DNA from: a virus
Virus record (IMG/VR): IMGVR_UViG_3300042449_000187
Span: 1-22,980 of that record
Length of the DNA stretch: 22,980 nt
Direction: 5' to 3' (one strand)
The position numbers and the translations under genes were made by a program. How positions within the stretch are numbered: the stretch's first letter is position 1; each line of letters begins with the position of its first letter. The notes below the pieces were generated by a model, which ran no database searches, was not told the origin of the DNA, and worked only from the letters and a program-made list of their open reading frames with translations. This document shows positions 2,920-22,102 of this stretch, one piece after another.

Positions 2920-3085
2920 TCCACACAAAACACATTCATATTCACACGATTGGATGTTGATGACTGCCTTTGATTTTGAATTACGCAATCACATTAAAGT
3001 GAATTGCGAACAAACAAATGAAATGACGATCATCCGTGGATATCTGGAAGAAAGAGTAAAAGAGATTAAGGAAAGATGGAAGTGA
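2906..3085 (+). CDS. Small hypothetical protein, 59 aa
   Basis: ATG 2906 follows GGAG (2893-2896) with nine bases spacing and overlaps the preceding small gene by 14 bases; its end overlaps the next gene by 10. The N-terminus is His-rich (several His in residues 7-14) and the C-terminal half is a charged helix (YLEERVKEIKERWK). No family recognised. It lies in a run of tiny overlapping genes typical of T4-like phage early regions. Confidence 0.6.
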   Translation: MEKTDPHKTHSYSHDWMLMTAFDFELRNHIKVNCEQTNEMTIIRGYLEERVKEIKERWK

Positions 3086-14592: not shown

Positions 14593-15121
14593 AGTAACAG
14601 ATCCTAGATTGTGTGGAGCCGTAACGGTTGACACAGGATTAAATACAAAAGTTCTCGCTGATAACTTGCTAGTAGCTGTTCAGGGAACACTAAACAGTCA
14701 TATGAATCTTGGAGCATTGATATCTTTATCACCACAAAAAATTTTGGTACAAGGTATACCGATGATTGTTTCTTTGATGGATCAAGGCGCTCCTGATATG
14801 GTCAATCCTTTACTAACACATGTTGAGGGATTGCCTACGCCTGCTGGAGGTTCTAATAAAGTTACTGCATATGGTGGATTAGGTTCCTTCGGTGGTGGAC
14901 TAGGTTCTTTTGGTATGTCTGGTATACCAGGTGTCGGTGAGATTATGCAGATTGGTTCGCAAGTCATGGGTCAAGTATCCAGAGTAGCAAATCAAGGTGG
15001 TGGTCAAGGTGTTTTGGTTATGAATAACATGACTTCGCAAACAGGTATTGGACCAGGATCAACTGTCACAAGCGCCAATACAGGAAGAACATTTACCTTT
15101 TCCGAGTATTATACATCTTGA
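14576..15121 (+). CDS. PAAR-like spike-tip protein
   Basis: 181 aa. Residues 1-95 have PAAR-like repeats: VHRVTDPRLCGAV, LADNLLVAVQGTLNSHMNLG, ILVQGIPMIVSLMDQG. These fold into a cone that caps baseplate or type VI spikes (compare T4 gp5.4). The C-terminal half is Gly/Ser-rich (GGLGSFGGGLGSFG) and could be a spike-associated or linker domain. The family call is from pattern, with no His/Cys zinc triad checked. It is a virion gene in the midst of replication genes and its end contains the hsp20 promoter. AGA/TTA/GGA codons look commoner than in the dUTPase gene. Confidence 0.7.
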   Translation: MPKVHRVTDPRLCGAVTVDTGLNTKVLADNLLVAVQGTLNSHMNLGALISLSPQKILVQGIPMIVSLMDQGAPDMVNPLLTHVEGLPTPAGGSNKVTAYGGLGSFGGGLGSFGMSGIPGVGEIMQIGSQVMGQVSRVANQGGGQGVLVMNNMTSQTGIGPGSTVTSANTGRTFTFSEYYTS

Positions 15122-15147
15122 CAACCGCATAAAGTTTACTATATAAT
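15118..15147 (+). promoter_or_regulatory. Promoter of hsp20
   Basis: TTGACA at 15118-15123 overlapping the PAAR stop, an 18-base spacer and TATAAT at 15142-15147. Predicted transcript start near 15154, giving a leader of about 50 bases. Confidence 0.82.
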
Positions 15148-15151
15148 ACTA

Positions 15152-15205
15152 GAATGATACCAAGAGGTATCGTTCCTTACTTCTCGCTAACTATAGGAGA
15201 AACAC
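15152..15205 (+). ncRNA. ROSE-like RNA thermometer in the hsp20 leader
   Basis: Hairpin I: GAATGATACC (15152-15161) pairs with GGTATCGTTC (15166-15175), loop AAGA, one G-U. Hairpin II: TTCTC (15181-15185), bulged G15186, CTA (15187-15189), loop ACTA, TAG (15194-15196), GAGAA (15197-15201). UCGCU (15184-15188) pairs with AGGA of the ribosome site with G15186 bulged out, as in the ROSE UYGCU signature. Confidence 0.65.
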
Positions 15206-15745
15206 ATGGGTAATAATAATCGTTCCACAGACCGTTTCTGGTTTGATCCTTTCACATTTGCTAACGACATTTCAAAGGGCGCTATCGGCTTTGATCGGGT
15301 GCTCCAGCAAATCGCCGAGGCAAATGAATATGTTCCAAAGATTCCATCTTATCCTCCATACAATGTAAAGAAGATTGATGAGGAACATTATGTGATCGAA
15401 ATGGCTGTTGCTGGTTTTGGTAAGCATAACCTTGATATCGAACTAAAGAATGATGTCCTGTCTATTACAGGAAGCACTGAGGCAGAGGAAGGCGACTACC
15501 TTCACAAAGGAATTGCTAATCGTGCTTTCACTCGGAAGTTCACCATTGCTGATAAGGTCGAAGTCAAGAATGCGGAACTTGCCAATGGTATGCTAAAGAT
15601 TTTCTTGGAGCGTTTTGTTCCAGAAGAGAATAAGGCCAAGAAGATTGACATTCTTGATCCGTTTGGTGTTCAGGAAGCAACGAAGCAATTTCTGACCGAA
15701 GGCGTAAAAAGTTGGACAGATGCTCTAACACCAAAGACTAAATAA
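15206..15745 (+). CDS. hsp20: Small heat-shock protein, Hsp20/IbpA-like
   Basis: 179 aa. The alpha-crystallin domain spans about residues 48-150: YPPYNVKKIDEEHYVIEMAV then AGFGKHNLDIELKNDVLSI, TRKFTIADKV, and the late MLKIFLERFVPEE strand; the IEMAVAG segment resembles bacterial IbpA. It is an ATP-independent holdase; hsp20 is a typical gene of T4-like cyanophages and pelagiphages, where it is thought to help virion assembly. A long C-terminal tail (EATKQFLTEGVKSW) exceeds the bacterial form. Ribosome site AGGAG at 15195-15199 lies in the ROSE-like hairpin. Own promoter at 15118. Confidence 0.92.
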   Translation: MGNNNRSTDRFWFDPFTFANDISKGAIGFDRVLQQIAEANEYVPKIPSYPPYNVKKIDEEHYVIEMAVAGFGKHNLDIELKNDVLSITGSTEAEEGDYLHKGIANRAFTRKFTIADKVEVKNAELANGMLKIFLERFVPEENKAKKIDILDPFGVQEATKQFLTEGVKSWTDALTPKTK

Positions 15746-15807: not shown

Positions 15808-16554
15808 ATGAAGCTAGTGATCGAAAAGCCTGTAACTGTAATCACGCCTACTATTGGTTCTCCAAAACTAAAAGATGCTATTGAGTCTGTAAGAAATCAG
15901 ACATATAATTGTCAGCATCTAATTGTAATTGATGGTCCTGGATATTGGAAAGAAGCATCTAAACATATTCCCACTCTTGATGATAACACAAAAATGGTTG
16001 TCTCGCCAGAGAACACAGGCAAGACAGGTGGCAACTTCTACGGTCATCGCATCTATGCTGCCTATCCACATCTAATCAATTCAGATTACATTCTATTTCT
16101 AGACGAAGACAACTGGTATGAACGAGACCATGTTGAAACGCTAGTCAAGACTATTGAAGAAAAGGACCTTGACTTCGCTTATTCACTCCGTCAAATCTAT
16201 TCTCCTGATCGCCGCTTCCGTTGTAATGACAACTGTGAAAGTCTAGGCAAGTGGCCAATCTTTATGTCTCGGAGTTCACCACATGGTCCGCAGTTTCTAA
16301 TAGATACATCTTCGTTCTGTTTCAAGCGAGAGTTTATCCAGAAAACATGTCACTTCTGGCATACAGGATGGGGTGGTGATAGACACTTCCTCTATGCGGT
16401 AAAAGACCATGCTAAGTATGATACGAATGGCAAGCATAGTCTTTGCTATCGTTTAGATGGCAATCCTAACTCGGTGACAGAACAGTTTTTCATCGAAGGT
16501 AACAAAACACAAGAGCAATATTATGGAGGAAGATATCCGTGGCAAAAGATTTGA
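15808..16554 (+). CDS. Family 2-type glycosyltransferase
   Basis: 248 aa. N-terminal VTVITPTIGSPKLKDAIESV then QTYNCQHLIVIDGPG, the GT2 nucleotide-sugar fold entry, and a metal-binding DEDN at 99-102 inside ILFLDEDNWYE. A C-terminal HFWHTGWGGDRHF acceptor-side motif follows. It starts after GAGG at eight bases and is the first gene behind the terminator at 15755. The end overlaps the next gene by 16 bases. Donor and acceptor unknown; the cassette includes deoxysugar and uronic-type sugar synthesis. Confidence 0.87.
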   Translation: MKLVIEKPVTVITPTIGSPKLKDAIESVRNQTYNCQHLIVIDGPGYWKEASKHIPTLDDNTKMVVSPENTGKTGGNFYGHRIYAAYPHLINSDYILFLDEDNWYERDHVETLVKTIEEKDLDFAYSLRQIYSPDRRFRCNDNCESLGKWPIFMSRSSPHGPQFLIDTSSFCFKREFIQKTCHFWHTGWGGDRHFLYAVKDHAKYDTNGKHSLCYRLDGNPNSVTEQFFIEGNKTQEQYYGGRYPWQKI

Positions 16555-17450
16555 TAGTTGGCGTAGTAGATAACTACGACTGGGACAAGATAAAGTATTG
16601 GTCAAACTCCATTGAGCAATCTGGTTTCGACGGATACAAGGCACTAATCGTTTATAATATGGATGCTGCTACAGCAAAGAAACTTACCGAGAAACAGTTT
16701 ATGTTGATCGGTTGTAGCGAGTATGATGAAACTAAAGGTTTTGTGTTTGAGAACAAAAGCAACATCATGGTGGATAGGTTCATGTATATCCATCATTTTC
16801 TTTCTATGCTTCAAACTCCAGATGACGTGAATAGAGTTATCATCACCGATGTTAGAGATGTTGTGTTTCAGACTAATCCAACAACATGGTTAGATGAATA
16901 CTTTATCCATGACGCAAACATTCTCGTTGGTTCTGAAAATCTAACATATGAAAATGAACCATGGGGAAAGAACAATATCAAGACAGCCTTTGGTGAATAC
17001 TTCTACGAAAAGCATAAGGATCTTCCTATTTACTGTGCTGGTGTTATTGCTGGTGAGTTGAATGCTATAAGTGATTTGTGTCAGAACATTTGGCTTATCT
17101 GTCGTGGTCTAAATCCTCATGTCGAAGGTGGTGGTGGTCCTGATCAGGCGGCACTAAACATCATTCTAAATTTGGAAGTATATAGTTTTTCTACATACTT
17201 TTCCAGTCCCGCTTGTGCATGGGTGCTTCACGCAGGAACATCTATGAATGCCATCAAGGCTGGTTCTGGTGGTATCGGAGAAGAATATATTAGAAATCCT
17301 AATATGAAGATTGACTTTATAAATGACTTAGAATATACTGTCATAGATAATAAAGTATGTTGGACGGATAAACCGATTACAGTTCTACACCAATGGGATC
17401 GTGTTCCCGAATGGAAAAAGATGATTGAGGAAAACTATGGCGCTAACTGA
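16539..17450 (+). CDS. Glycosyltransferase-like protein, GTG start
   Basis: 303 aa. GTG 16539 follows GGAGGA at eight bases, stronger than any ATG nearby. N-terminal DLIVGVVDNYDWDKIKYW resembles the opening strand of GT-A enzymes, and DVRDV from Asp104 (VIITDVRDVVFQTNP) is a probable metal/nucleotide site. IYCAGVIAGE and GGGGPDQAALN look like the acceptor/donor-binding parts. It fits DUF616- or GT8-like enzymes, but I cannot choose. Overlaps the methyltransferase gene by 14 bases. Confidence 0.7.
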   Translation: MAKDLIVGVVDNYDWDKIKYWSNSIEQSGFDGYKALIVYNMDAATAKKLTEKQFMLIGCSEYDETKGFVFENKSNIMVDRFMYIHHFLSMLQTPDDVNRVIITDVRDVVFQTNPTTWLDEYFIHDANILVGSENLTYENEPWGKNNIKTAFGEYFYEKHKDLPIYCAGVIAGELNAISDLCQNIWLICRGLNPHVEGGGGPDQAALNIILNLEVYSFSTYFSSPACAWVLHAGTSMNAIKAGSGGIGEEYIRNPNMKIDFINDLEYTVIDNKVCWTDKPITVLHQWDRVPEWKKMIEENYGAN

Positions 17451-18021
17451 CGAAGACTTTATGACTATTGAGGAACTGGGTAGCAAGTGGCCCTATGATT
17501 GGGTTTCTACAAAAGGACTTGCTCCCTATATCAAACGACTTGGCGAGAATGTTACCGGTATTGAGATTGGTACCTGTCGTGCCGAGTCTACCGCTTATCT
17601 GCTAGAGAAGTGTCCAAACATTCAGCGTATCTTTACTATTGATCCTTACAAGGCGTATCAGGATTGGAATGGTGAGATTACACAGAATGATGTTGATAGA
17701 TTTATGGATGCTGCCAAGAAGAACCTAGAGCCATATGGTGATCGGGTTAGGATGATTAGAGAAACATCCACAGAGGCAGCAAGTAACTTCACTGATACAC
17801 TAGTTGACTTTATCTTTGTTGATGGCGATCATTCATACGAAGCGACACTAGCTGACTGTGAGGCATACTATCCATTTCTAAAGCCAGGTGGTTTCTTTTG
17901 TGGACACGATTATAGTTCTATCGATGCTGTTTATCGTGCTGTGAATGATTTCAGAGACAAGCACAAGATTACTTCACCTATCAATCTATCTACCAACTCC
18001 ACTTTCTTCTGGTACAAGTAA
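17437..18021 (+). CDS. SAM-dependent methyltransferase, Methyltransf_24-like
   Basis: 194 aa from ATG 17437, six bases after GAGG (a TTG at 17425 is also in frame). GIEIGTCRAESTAYL (SAM motif I), IFTIDPYKAY (acidic strand end), FIFVDGDHSYEATLAD and a C-terminal FLKPGGFFCGHDY mark the Methyltransf_24 type, often acting on sugars or other secondary-metabolite groups. With glycosyltransferases on both sides, O-methylation of a sugar is the likeliest role. TAATG overlap with the next gene. Confidence 0.85.
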   Translation: MALTDEDFMTIEELGSKWPYDWVSTKGLAPYIKRLGENVTGIEIGTCRAESTAYLLEKCPNIQRIFTIDPYKAYQDWNGEITQNDVDRFMDAAKKNLEPYGDRVRMIRETSTEAASNFTDTLVDFIFVDGDHSYEATLADCEAYYPFLKPGGFFCGHDYSSIDAVYRAVNDFRDKHKITSPINLSTNSTFFWYK

Positions 18022-18899
18022 TGAAGATTTTACGACTAGGATTTTCTGATACATTCTCTACGGCTATAAACTTCTTTACCGAGGCACTGGGTCGTAGATT
18101 TCAGATTGTTCGTGACGATGAAAATCCAGAGTATCTAATCTATGGTGAAGGAGTCTATGGACATAATCACCGTAGATTCGGACCAGAAGTCACTAAGGTC
18201 TTTTATACTGGCGAGAATGTTAGACCACCATGGGGTGAGTGTCAGTTTGCTATGACCTTTGACCATGAGAATAGTTCTCGCCATTATCGTCTACCTCTTT
18301 ATGCGATTGATATGTGGGGTGCGGTCACCGAAGGATGGACCAAAGACTATTATCAGTTGGTTCATCTGAATCATGATTATGAAATAGAATATGATACCAG
18401 AGGATTTTGTTCTTTCGTTGTATCTAATCCTAATCAAGAAATGAGAAACAAAGCATTTCATTTCATCAATGATTATAAGCAGGTCAACTCCGCAGGTCCT
18501 CATTATAATAACGTTGGCTATGTTTTACCAAGAGATAAACTAGTTCACAAGTTGATGTTTTTGGATAGATATCGGTTCAACATTTGTTTCGAGAATAGTT
18601 CATATCCTGGCTATGTAACCGAAAAGATATTGAATGCTCTACAGGTAAAGACTATGCCAATCTATTGGGGATCACCAACAGTTGAAAGAGATTTCAATAC
18701 ACGTGCCTTTATCAATGCATCGGATCATGGTGATTTCAACAAACTAGTAGACTATATCAGACATCTAGACTCGACCGCCGGCAAAAAAGAGTATCTAGAT
18801 ATTATTAGTCAGCCCGCCTTTAAGAATGATGTTCCTAACTGTTATACCAGTATGAATAATCTTAGCGCCTGGTGGGAAGCGTTCGTATGTGGAGATTGA
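18021..18899 (+). CDS. Fucosyltransferase-like protein, GT10 family
   Basis: 292 aa. The GT10 donor-binding core FNICFENSSYPGYVTEKIL lies at residues 186-204, with Glu191-Asn192 and Tyr198-Val-Thr-Glu-Lys202, followed by MPIYWGSPTVERDFN and AFINASDHGDF. GT10 enzymes transfer fucose from GDP-fucose to sugars. The next gene makes the GDP-fucose precursor, which supports fucose, or a related 6-deoxy sugar, as donor. The N-terminal domain (about 1-150) is less conserved, as usual for acceptor binding. Confidence 0.88.
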   Translation: MKILRLGFSDTFSTAINFFTEALGRRFQIVRDDENPEYLIYGEGVYGHNHRRFGPEVTKVFYTGENVRPPWGECQFAMTFDHENSSRHYRLPLYAIDMWGAVTEGWTKDYYQLVHLNHDYEIEYDTRGFCSFVVSNPNQEMRNKAFHFINDYKQVNSAGPHYNNVGYVLPRDKLVHKLMFLDRYRFNICFENSSYPGYVTEKILNALQVKTMPIYWGSPTVERDFNTRAFINASDHGDFNKLVDYIRHLDSTAGKKEYLDIISQPAFKNDVPNCYTSMNNLSAWWEAFVCGD

Positions 18900-18900
18900 T

Positions 18901-19917
18901 ATGAAGAAAGCTATTATAACAGGAATTACTGGTCAAGATGGATCATATCTTGCAGAGCTACTACTAGAGAAAGGATATGAGGTCTACGGTTTTGTCCGTA
19001 GATCATCTGTGCCTAACTTAAAGAATATTGAAAGTATCAGAGACAATCGAAATCTAACACTCGTATATAACGATCTGACATCACCTTCTTCTGTTATTGA
19101 TAATATTCTGGATATAAATCCAGATGAAACATATAATATAGCAGCACAGTCGGATGTTAGAGTTTCATTTGACATTCCTGAATATACTATGGAATGTATT
19201 GCAGTAGGAACAACTGGTATTCTTGAAGCGTTACGTAAGATAAAGATAAAAGGTGGAAATCCTAAATTTTATCAAGCATCTACATCCGAACTTTTTGGTT
19301 TGGTTCAGGAGACACCTCAGAAAGAAACGACTCCTTTTTATCCTCGTTCGCCATATGGTTGTGCTAAACTAGCGGCGCACTGGATGACAGTTAATTATCG
19401 TGAATCATATGACATGTTTAACTGTAGTGGAATACTTTTCAACCATGAGAGTCCTCGTAGAGGTATTAATTTTGTTACTCGTAAGATTACACATGGCTTA
19501 AAAAGAGTAGCACTTGGAAAACAGTCTATTGTATCTATGGGTAATTTGGATTCACAGAGAGATTGGGGACACGCTAAAGATTATGTGAAAGCCATGTATA
19601 TGATGTTACAGCATGATAATCCTGATGATTATGTTGTCTCTACAGGAGAACTACATACAGTTAGAGAGTTTATTGAGATTACAGGTAAACATTATGATAT
19701 GGATATTGTGTGGCAGAATAAAGGAATATATGAAATAGGAATTGATCGTAAAAAGAATGTTCCTGTTATCAACGTTGATCCTTATTTTTATCGTCCCGCC
19801 GAAGTTCAGATCCTCTTAGGAGACTCGTCTAAGATTCGTAATAACCTGAGTTGGAGACCAGAATATGATTTTGAATCTCTAATTGAAGATATGTGTGCTA
19901 ATGAAAAAGGTGAGTAA
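18901..19917 (+). CDS. gmd: GDP-mannose 4,6-dehydratase
   Basis: 338 aa from ATG 18901, six bases after GGAG. NAD(P)-binding GITGQDG at 8-14, STSE at 127-130 and the catalytic Tyr152-x3-Lys156 (SPYGCAK), with NHESPRRG and a late GHAKDYV, all as in Gmd. The enzyme makes GDP-4-keto-6-deoxymannose, precursor of GDP-fucose, GDP-rhamnose and GDP-perosamine. The next step needs a reductase/epimerase; the partial epimerase at 22232 is a candidate but lacks the usual SACIYP-type signature. Base use here and in the next gene (AGA, TTA, ATA) is more AT-rich than in the neighbours. Confidence 0.93.
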   Translation: MKKAIITGITGQDGSYLAELLLEKGYEVYGFVRRSSVPNLKNIESIRDNRNLTLVYNDLTSPSSVIDNILDINPDETYNIAAQSDVRVSFDIPEYTMECIAVGTTGILEALRKIKIKGGNPKFYQASTSELFGLVQETPQKETTPFYPRSPYGCAKLAAHWMTVNYRESYDMFNCSGILFNHESPRRGINFVTRKITHGLKRVALGKQSIVSMGNLDSQRDWGHAKDYVKAMYMMLQHDNPDDYVVSTGELHTVREFIEITGKHYDMDIVWQNKGIYEIGIDRKKNVPVINVDPYFYRPAEVQILLGDSSKIRNNLSWRPEYDFESLIEDMCANEKGE

Positions 19918-20867
19918 TGTCTAATATATTATTTGTGGTTCATAGATATGCTCCTTATCCAGGAGGCAGTGAGATTAATGTCCAGAATATGGCCGAAGGT
20001 CTTCTTGCTCGTGGTCACGATGTTACTGTATTAGCAGAAACGCATAAAGGTGATTATAATAATGTCAAAGTTACAAGCGATTATCAAAGACTTGCTGATC
20101 CCTGGGATTTAATAGTCGTTCATGGAGGAGATGTTTATTATCAAAACATTGTTCATCTAAACGGTCGTAGAATTTCATCTCCTGTTCTTTATCTTATCAT
20201 AAAGCCTAGCGAAACGGATATATGTATGCTAGGACTTCATTCGCATCGTTTTATAGGATACGGAATGACGGATGAAATCAATCACATTAAAAAACATAAT
20301 GTGATTAAGAAAGCACGACGAATAAGATACGGCATAAGACATGAAGGAATCATTAAGACTAAATCTCTTTCAAGCGATAAGAAGATTTTTGTTTCCGCAG
20401 GAGGGTTTTCTACTCACAAAGGTATGAAACCATTGGCTGCCGCTTTTGAATCTTCTGATATACACAATGCAGAATTACATCTATACGGTTATTGTAATCA
20501 AGAACTAATGCCTAAACAGACGGATAAAGTCAAAGTCTTTTTCGGATTAACAAAAGACGAAGTATATCAGGCGATGGCAAATGCCGATGCATATATTATG
20601 AACTCTTATGATGATGGATTTGGACTGGTTTTATTAGAAGCGATGATGAATAAGACACCTTGGTTCGCTAGAGATATTTCGGGCGCCCATGATATGGCTC
20701 GTTGGGGAACCCTGCATAGCACCGAACATGAGCTAATGAATAATCTTCGCAACTTCGAACGTGATGATAAGAAGATTGAAGATGCCTACGATTATGTGAT
20801 GGCAAATCATACCGTTCAGGATACCTGTAATGATATAGAAGACGTTTTGTTGGAGACTTTACGATGA
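19917..20867 (+). CDS. GT4-like glycosyltransferase (GT-B fold)
   Basis: 316 aa. N-terminal RYAPYPGGSE (10-19) is the GT-B acceptor-side loop. The C-terminal donor domain starts at IFVSAGGFSTHKGM and contains the EX7E-like pattern DGFGLVLLE from Asp233 to Glu241. Family 4 usually has Glu at the first of these positions; here it is Asp. TAATG overlap with gmd and ATGA overlap with the dehydrogenase. The donor is unknown. The gene has the same AT-rich codons as gmd. Confidence 0.87.
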   Translation: MSNILFVVHRYAPYPGGSEINVQNMAEGLLARGHDVTVLAETHKGDYNNVKVTSDYQRLADPWDLIVVHGGDVYYQNIVHLNGRRISSPVLYLIIKPSETDICMLGLHSHRFIGYGMTDEINHIKKHNVIKKARRIRYGIRHEGIIKTKSLSSDKKIFVSAGGFSTHKGMKPLAAAFESSDIHNAELHLYGYCNQELMPKQTDKVKVFFGLTKDEVYQAMANADAYIMNSYDDGFGLVLLEAMMNKTPWFARDISGAHDMARWGTLHSTEHELMNNLRNFERDDKKIEDAYDYVMANHTVQDTCNDIEDVLLETLR

Positions 20868-22102
20868 AGGTAGCAGTTATTGGTGCAGGTGGTCATGTTG
20901 GCTTTCCATTCTCTTGTGTTATCGCTAATGCTGGTCACACAGTTTATGGTATTGATATCAATCAGGACGCTGTAGACTTACTAAACAGAGGCATTGTTCC
21001 TTACATAGAGGAAGGCGCCGCAGATATTCTAAATGAGAATCTACGAAAAGAGCGCCTACTATTTACAACAGATTTTGATTTCATCAAAGATGCTGACGTG
21101 GTTGCTATTATGATTGGCACGCCAGTTGATGGCGAAGGTAACGCCAGACTAGATGACTTATTCAACTTTGTTGATGCTACTCTTATTCCTCGCATGAAGA
21201 CAGGTCAGTTGATTGTTCTACGGTCTACTGTATCACCAGGAACAACAGAGGTTCTTCGCAAACACATTTCATATAAGCATGGATGGGCAGAAGGAGGCGA
21301 TTATCATCTTGTATTCTGTCCTGAAAGAGTTGTTCAAGGTAAGTCTATGGTCGAAACATCTAAACTGCCACAGTTGATTGGCGCATTCAATCATCATTCA
21401 TTTGATGTTGCTAAGGACTTTTTTAGCACATTCATCAAGAATGAAATATTTTATCTAACGCCAAGAGAAGCAGAAGTTGGTAAACTCATGACGAACATGT
21501 ATCGTTATGTTACCTTTGCTTTCGCTAACGAGTTTTGGATGATCGGAGAGAAACATGGAATCAACATTGACAAAGTTATTGACGCATGTAACCACGATTA
21601 TCCTCGTATGTCTGTACCACACCCTGGTCCTAATGTGGGTGGTCCTTGTCTTTTCAAAGATGGTAAGTTTCTTCTTTCTGACATTCCTTTTGGCGATCTT
21701 ATCAATACTTCGTTCCTTATCAACGAAGGCATGCCGGATTATATCTTCAATCGGATCAGAGAAATCAATCCAAAGGTAGATAAGGTTCTTATTCTAGGTG
21801 CGACATTCAAGAAAGATTGCGACGATACAAGAAACAGTCTATCATTCAAGATGCGTAAGGTATGTAAGAAGCACGGTGTAGAAGCATATATGGATGATAA
21901 GTTTTACATCGATAGTCTAGCAAAGTTTCCAGATGCTATCAAGTTTGATGCTGTTATTGTTATGACACCTCATACAGGAACGGAAGTTGATTGGCCATTA
22001 GACCAGTTTAGAAAAGATTGTATCATTGCTGATATCTGGAAGATGTATCCAGAAAGCAAACTAAGTAATACGGGCATTTATAAAGTTGGAGATGTGCTAT
22101 GA
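20864..22102 (+). CDS. Nucleotide-sugar dehydrogenase (UDP-glucose/UDP-ManNAc type)
   Basis: 412 aa. NAD-binding GAGGHVG (7-13), substrate strand VAIMIGTPVD, LRSTVSPGTTE, FCPERVVQGK, and catalytic Cys262 in GGPCLFKD. It oxidises the sugar C6 alcohol of a UDP- or GDP-sugar to a uronic acid through the Cys. Family members include Ugd, WecC and AlgD; FCPERVVQGK and the NVGGPC context lean toward the WecC/WbpA-like group, but substrate cannot be fixed from sequence. Starts nine bases after GGAG. Confidence 0.9.
   Translation: MKVAVIGAGGHVGFPFSCVIANAGHTVYGIDINQDAVDLLNRGIVPYIEEGAADILNENLRKERLLFTTDFDFIKDADVVAIMIGTPVDGEGNARLDDLFNFVDATLIPRMKTGQLIVLRSTVSPGTTEVLRKHISYKHGWAEGGDYHLVFCPERVVQGKSMVETSKLPQLIGAFNHHSFDVAKDFFSTFIKNEIFYLTPREAEVGKLMTNMYRYVTFAFANEFWMIGEKHGINIDKVIDACNHDYPRMSVPHPGPNVGGPCLFKDGKFLLSDIPFGDLINTSFLINEGMPDYIFNRIREINPKVDKVLILGATFKKDCDDTRNSLSFKMRKVCKKHGVEAYMDDKFYIDSLAKFPDAIKFDAVIVMTPHTGTEVDWPLDQFRKDCIIADIWKMYPESKLSNTGIYKVGDVL

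Follow-up and report, generated by a model that had tools for sequence, protein, structure and literature searches.

A ROSE-like two-hairpin leader, a putative RNA thermometer, before the hsp20 gene of T4-like aquatic phages

Results

The stretch of DNA analyzed here, referred to throughout as the window, is a 22,980-base virus record of a T4-like phage that encodes a sliding clamp, a clamp loader and members of the PHROG families 'peptidase' and 'porphyrin biosynthesis', which we take to be CobT and CobS. An hsp20 gene on the plus strand (15206–15745) encodes a small heat shock protein of 179 aa (Pfam HSP20, 64.9 bits; PHROG 432), and is followed by a run of sugar-modification genes (15808–22102) that includes a glycosyltransferase of family 2, a TylF-type methyltransferase, a fucosyltransferase and a UDP-glucose/GDP-mannose dehydrogenase. 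The hsp20 gene is described as a cyanophage core gene, for which the capsid scaffolding role proposed in the same source is a guess (PMC3037559).

On the same strand, a sigma-70-type promoter (TTGACA-18-TATAAT, 15118–15147) matching the consensus at 12 of 12 positions is followed by two predicted hairpins. Hairpin I (15152–15175), a stable 5′ hairpin of 10 pairs with an AAGA loop, lies at the likely start of the RNA, about 54 nt from the hsp20 start codon. In hairpin II (15181–15201), positions 15181–15185 and 15187–15189 form eight pairs with 15194–15201 around an ACUA loop (15190–15193), masking the Shine-Dalgarno (SD) sequence AGGAG (15195–15199). Its anti-SD strand holds a U(U/C)GCU core, here UCGCU (15184–15188), which faces AGGA (15195–15198) and leaves G15186 bulged. 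The first-pass annotation of this DNA had described the promoter ahead of the hairpins, the hairpin at 15152–15175, the eight-pair hairpin over the ribosome site of hsp20 and the single bulged G between UCGCU and AGGA, and the sequence and minimum free energy (MFE) folds bear out each of these elements. The observation is real and far above chance: the MFE of 15140–15230 is −20.4 kcal/mol against a shuffled mean of −12.17 (z −3.06; 1 of 200 shuffles as good), and the pattern CTCGCTN{2,9}AGGAG occurs once in the window against 0.02 expected occurrences.

Phage hsp20 loci were drawn by protein similarity, 40 with the protein of the window and 240 with three small alignments (best 80 matches listed for each), so that the leader had no part in the choice of loci; start codons were those with the best SD, chosen by script. 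The core, defined as U(C/U)GCU located 2–14 nt before AGGA, GGGA or AGGG, itself 2–14 nt from the start, is present in 199 of 238 distinct phage hsp20 leaders (among the matches listed), compared with 10 of 698 control ORFs from these loci, each of at least 120 aa with an SD, taken from either strand and possibly including false ORFs. A few of the 199 are chance matches inside the preceding gene (L208 and probably L235, where the element lies one gene upstream of hsp20). The 39 leaders lacking the core were sorted by inspection of the lists into six groups: in 18 the element lies 215–319 nt upstream, ahead of a small gene preceding hsp20; three are cut or mis-started genes; 12 carry A-GACGCU..GGAGG-UCU instead; three keep the helix by compensatory change, as CUCGCC..GGGAG (L282, L284) or CUCGCA..UGGAG (L295); two read CCUUGCU..GGAGG; and the remaining one (L238) fits no clear group. 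In the variant leaders (L335–L340, L342, L343, L345, L356, L360, L407 and L169, the phage DSL-LC02), AGAYGCU pairs with the SD and the bases that follow it, GGAGRUCU; the leader of DSL-LC02, AGAUGCU..AGGAGAUCU, differs from A-GACGCU..GGAGG-UCU by a compensatory C-G to U-A change.

The core was also found in eight of nine records of the phages collection, with leaders such as UCUUGCU..AGGAGA in Melnitz, CUCGCU..AGGAG in HTVC115P, S-CREM1 and ACG-2014f, AUCGCU..AGGAU in HTVC103P, and CUUUGCU..AGGAGG in HTVC008M and Mosig, and in 14 of 14 further cyanophage-type records, picked among 40 listed to differ by name and including P-RSM6, P-SSM5, Syn9, S-RIM2 and S-CAM1. The conservation of UYGCU and AGGA in related phages, on which the earlier thermometer proposal depended, is hence strong. 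Since ACG-2014e adds GUCGCU..AGGAC, the pair two below the variable pyrimidine of the core (the Y site) can be C-G, U-G, A-U or G-C. Clustering of 283 leaders, a set that leaves out those of L011, L034, L040, L170 and L277 and any with less than 75 nt upstream, yielded 102 representatives, in five of which this pair is a G-G mismatch; at the Y site, 55 representatives have C and 39 have U, and eight lack the motif. Among bacterial contigs, which were selected because they resemble phage Hsp20 and may in part be phage-derived, the core is present in 72 of 74 hsp20 leaders, and the Y site of 73 such leaders is C in 22 and U in 49. What is, judged by sequence, a ROSE-like element precedes hsp20 in most of the related water-borne phages examined, and the predicted element is common to phage and bacterial hsp20 leaders.

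The bulged hairpins themselves recur well above the controls. In MFE folds, we counted hairpins whose 5′ strand carries a single bulged G 2–4 pairs from the loop. Such a hairpin occurs upstream (hairpin I) in 69 of the 102 representatives, over the SD (hairpin II) in 57 and at both places in 40; the corresponding counts are five, two and zero in 1020 shuffles, and two, zero and zero in 728 other ORFs. Anchored counts and aligned-loop subsets were used for covariation because differing loop lengths shift the SD columns in whole-leader MAFFT/RNAalifold alignments, an attempt from which, and only there, nine representatives were excluded. Hairpin I could be anchored on GCC...GG in 79 of the 102 representatives, and each of the five pairs outside the bulge forms in 76–79 of these 79, with four to six pair types each (shuffled control: 69.1 for the innermost pair, 31.4–38.1 for the other four). 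Alignments A5 (43 sequences) and A6 (21) were derived from 56 leaders picked by a sequence motif that fixes two inner G-C pairs and leaves the five outer pairs free. With 43 sequences aligned by sequence only, 99.7% of the cells of hairpin I are paired, and its covariation score is 0.837, compared with 0.203 when shuffled and at most 0.160 when slid. Compensatory changes, proposed earlier as a check, were thus found in both hairpins: hairpin I covaries strongly, and hairpin II, which is less variable because the SD fixes its sequence, is changed in AUCGCU..AGGAU, GUCGCU..AGGAC, CUCGCC..GGGAG and CUCGCA..UGGAG. Hairpin I of the window is a perfect stem, whereas that of most relatives has a bulged G of its own within a second ROSE-type core, YGCC...GGR, also seen in the E. 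coli ibpA leader (L491), so that the two hairpins seem to repeat a single fold. At the level of primary sequence and predicted fold, the analysis demonstrates both hairpins and the bulged G, shows that they are conserved and covary, and links them to hsp20 or its operon.

The RNA probably starts near the base of hairpin I. The heptamer ATAAATA, the core of the T4 late promoter, is found no more than 75 nt from the start in 24 of the 102 representatives, compared with 23 of 727 other ORFs. In the 23 representatives measured, it ends upstream of the fifth pair of hairpin I at a distance of 4–7 nt (12 nt in one case). The window carries its sigma-70 promoter at this same place, suggesting that the promoter class changes while the hairpins stay. 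A late promoter is given as TATAAAT in PMC3037559. A tree built by a short search from one random subsample, with 56 Hsp20 proteins from phages and 37 from bacteria, contains five changes of label, at least three of them forced by well-supported branches, and the window protein falls in an all-phage set of 25. The idea that the phage acquired gene and sensor together fits the interleaving of phage and bacterial Hsp20 proteins and the presence of the core on both sides, the direction of transfer aside.

The element is largely specific to hsp20. Of 20 phage records, 19 contain CTCGCTN{2,9}AGGAG a single time and one contains it twice; given this low frequency and the 10 of 698 other ORFs bearing the core, we rejected the idea that it is a leader motif common to the genes of these phages. 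A pattern that allows either Y and includes a start codon gives a single match, at hsp20, in five of eight isolated phages; in Melnitz it matches hsp20 and a second site, in HTVC103P a single site away from hsp20, and in DSL-LC02 nothing. The looser TYGCTN{2,9}AGGAGN{3,13}ATG yields 34 matches in 20 records against six for a reversed control, so some of these are due to chance. A blind motif scan returned at least 122 sites, of which, among the matches listed, 39 lie directly before hsp20, five have hsp20 within 1.5 kb and 78 have none; in at least three of the latter (L074, L135, L142) an hsp20 gene is truncated by the end of the contig, and many of the others look like chance matches.

Model R1, a covariance model built from 21 other phage leaders with the window excluded, has its best match in the window at 15153–15202 (17.2 bits, E 0.0021), the next reaching 8.7 bits (E 0.56). 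When R1 was run on 49 of the 80 bacterial-contig loci and the E. coli region, all 35 matches at E ≤ 1 fell at hsp20-type leaders, the only one in the E. coli region lying at ibpB (14.9 bits). As a twin-core covariance model, R1 picks up hsp20 leaders that lie below the Rfam ROSE cut-offs. R1 also matches the leaders of rubredoxin-hsp20 operons (L113, L159, L035), with rubredoxin confirmed by Pfam in L113 and L159, and those of operons in which a small gene precedes hsp20 (L108, L150, L157). At L113:91–286, L159:2229–2427 and L035:1876–2101, a rubredoxin gene leads the hsp20 operon and bears the twin-hairpin leader, L035 having a second copy of the element about 190 nt after the first. At L217:2153–2446, L227:2153–2377, L249:2230–2445, L235:2242–2463 and similar loci, a gene of 72–98 aa sits between element and hsp20, and the element therefore heads a two-gene operon. 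Four of these small proteins were compared with Pfam and stayed below every cut-off, the gene has no clear PHROG assignment, and the label 'phasin-like' was dropped, no phasin family appearing among the Pfam matches.

Other leaders of this kind were noted apart from hsp20. A phage ahpC-ahpF pair (L072:1907–2526, minus strand) has a full twin-hairpin leader (R1, 31.3 bits) in a 26-kb record with no hsp20. Weaker R1 matches in two records lacking hsp20 (L156, 18.9 bits; L116, 18.1 bits) are unexplained or due to chance. In L301, an ORF near 3003, downstream of hsp20, is by eye a DnaK-like candidate of 630 aa preceded by UUUGCU..AGGAGG, and its leader gave no R1 match at E ≤ 0.1.

The ROSE covariance models, the search suggested in the first-pass annotation, gave a divided answer. 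In the window, no Rfam family was found at cut-off, none of ROSE, ROSE_2 and ROSE_3 reached its gathering score, ROSE_3 had no match at E up to 10, and the matches at E up to 10 were to three unrelated families. The ROSE families likewise stayed below gathering score in ten phage and ten bacterial loci and in a set of 20 phage loci. The favorable part of the answer lies in relatives: in three of the 20 phage loci, ROSE_3 has a sub-threshold match that coincides exactly with the hsp20 leader (Melnitz, 34.1 bits, E 0.0017; P-RSM6, 23.7; S-CAM9, 20.0), and in five of 11 bacterial loci sub-threshold ROSE or ROSE_3 matches lie at the hsp20 leaders, those of ROSE_3 coinciding exactly with the leaders of three bacterial loci; ROSE_2 scores 100.4 bits on E. 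coli ibpA. The position of these sub-threshold matches on hsp20 leaders argues for kinship with the ROSE class and shows that current models fail to cover the element. The element is outside the Rfam ROSE models, and the ROSE-like class, as described in PMC3669281 and PMC11342760, is wider than those models.

Computed melting of the window's SD is slight. Its predicted open fraction reaches 0.03 (37 °C) and 0.04 (42 °C), and that of the published E. coli ibpA thermometer, among the best studied of the ROSE-like class (PMC3669281), is likewise low (0.15 and 0.18). The open fraction computed for Melnitz grows from 0.17 (20 °C) to 0.77 (42 °C), and with the coding sequence included the SDs of Mosig and HTVC008M are predicted to be largely open already at 20 °C (0.98 and 0.75). 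For 101 representatives, the median is 0.13 at 20 °C and only 0.27 at 42 °C; the corresponding values for other ORFs are 0.35 and 0.43.

Discussion

The most probable reading of these data, to which we assign a likelihood of about three in four, is that the hsp20 leader of the window is a short, two-hairpin ROSE-like RNA thermometer controlling translation of the phage's own Hsp20. The ROSE-like interpretation of the first-pass annotation is supported, with thermosensing as a predicted property. Transcription would start near the base of hairpin I, which would fold at once and stay folded, while UCGCU in hairpin II would pair with the SD around the bulged G and exclude the ribosome; warming would then open the helix of hairpin II, free the SD and allow the chaperone to be made. 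That hairpin II of the window opens with temperature within the range of the host is suggested by the layout it shares with the Pseudomonas ibpA leaders; in those, hairpin II is reported to respond to heat by itself, and hairpin I stays closed (PMC3669281). Points against the thermometer are the slight computed opening of the SD, the prediction that some relatives are open when cold, the lack of any Rfam family at cut-off in the window, and the Y site of the window, which is C as in the U38C mutant of P. putida, reported to have lost its response, though U43C in P. stuartii oppF is reported to have had little effect (PMC3669281, PMC11342760).

A second signal may come from the chaperone itself. 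Bound Hsp20 may add negative feedback to the thermometer, as in E. coli, where IbpA is reported to repress its own leader via R93, with R97, K98 and Y34 (PMC10474464). Because the window protein has all four residues (R93, R97, K98 and an aromatic residue at 34), this feedback is a serious companion or rival to the thermometer, binding to the leader being a prediction. Taken as a rival, the argument would be that the hairpins are mainly Hsp20's own binding site, with free chaperone repressing its synthesis and unfolded clients titrating it away, so that the leader would report chaperone demand in infection, not temperature. We regard this as unlikely, although it deserves attention: among the 102 representatives, R93 is R in 100, position 34 is aromatic in 102 and position 97 is R or K in 101, but K98 is kept in only 14, the residues may be kept for chaperone structure, and a bulged SD helix fits a thermometer without any protein. 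Furthermore, self-repression and a thermometer can coexist.

The weak computed melting speaks for another reading, in which the hairpins do no more than hold translation at a low, constant rate or protect the 5′ end of the mRNA, and the bulged G has no sensing role. This explanation appears improbable, since the unusual bulged-G core is specific to hsp20 leaders and is common to bacterial heat-shock leaders and tested thermometers (PMC3669281). Lastly, the notion that hairpin I serves the upstream gene as an intrinsic terminator, incidentally placed before hsp20, has next to no chance and is rejected: a loose scan lists hairpin I of the window as terminator-like, and of 93 scorable representatives 13 have a T run of at least five after it, but in the window it is not followed by a U-run, the other 80 lack one, a promoter directly precedes it, and hairpin II would be left unexplained.

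With the thermometer as the preferred reading, a broader proposal can be put forward tentatively, at rather less than even odds. A twin-core ROSE element, with YGCC...GGR in hairpin I, YGCU...AGG in hairpin II and one bulged G in each, might be a near-universal regulator of the hsp20 gene or operon in T4-like aquatic phages, read by temperature and by the phage's own Hsp20, so that chaperone supply would follow folding demand; it would also head rubredoxin-hsp20 operons, operons led by a small gene of unknown function and one phage ahpC-ahpF pair. One ROSE-like class precedes hsp20 in about 200 distinct phage leaders (among the matches listed), including all 14 further cyanophage-type records; if the element senses temperature, warming would directly change the protein output of common aquatic phages. 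Among the matches listed from the open-licence PMC literature, we found no report of a thermometer before a phage hsp20, and no open-licence PMC paper combining bacteriophage, hsp20 and RNA thermometer; in the available text of two cyanophage hsp20 papers (PMC3827213, PMC3037559), neither 'thermometer' nor 'untranslated' appears.

Phage thermometers of other kinds have been described, namely lambda cIII, SP-beta blyA and a Caudoviricetes sigma-70 gene (PMC11182007). As presented there, blyA and the sigma-70 gene are of the fourU type and lambda cIII acts, by the title cited, through alternative mRNA structures; none of those described is ROSE-like or precedes hsp20. A fourU identity is ruled out for the window, where the anti-SD strand is UUCUCGCUA and not four or more U paired with the SD. 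ROSE-G shares with the window the bulged G opposite the SD, but is reported before ABC transporter genes and reads CUGCU, its SD strand having a bulged G as well (PMC12857270); the UCGCU and single bulge of the window rule out this identity. ROSE_3 (RF02523) matches some phage leaders below threshold, its gathering score of 43 being unreached by all loci tested. The E. coli ibpA ROSE element (ROSE_2, RF01832) holds the same two cores, CGCC-UGAU-GGG and UCUCGCU...AGGAG, so the twin-core layout is not peculiar to phages; its leader is longer, however, and ROSE_2 had no match in the phage loci tested.

The window shares with the ROSE-like class the bulged G15186 opposite the SD in the MFE fold and an arrangement of two hairpins with the SD in the last, the class having two to four. 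Its likeness to the Pseudomonas ibpA leader, as described in PMC3669281, extends to the small heat shock gene, the two hairpins (in a leader of 61–62 nt there and about 54 nt here), the stable first hairpin and the U(U/C)GCU sequence imperfectly paired with the SD in the second. The two systems differ in that Pseudomonas ibpA has a sigma-32 promoter and the phage gene a sigma-70 or T4-late-like one, in that the phage Y site is more often C than U (55 C, 39 T of 102), and in that the temperature response was measured there and is predicted here. The ROSE-like class is thus known, and its two-hairpin form is known in Pseudomonas; the leader analyzed here would add to it a phage-borne, widespread member that probably senses temperature in the same way.
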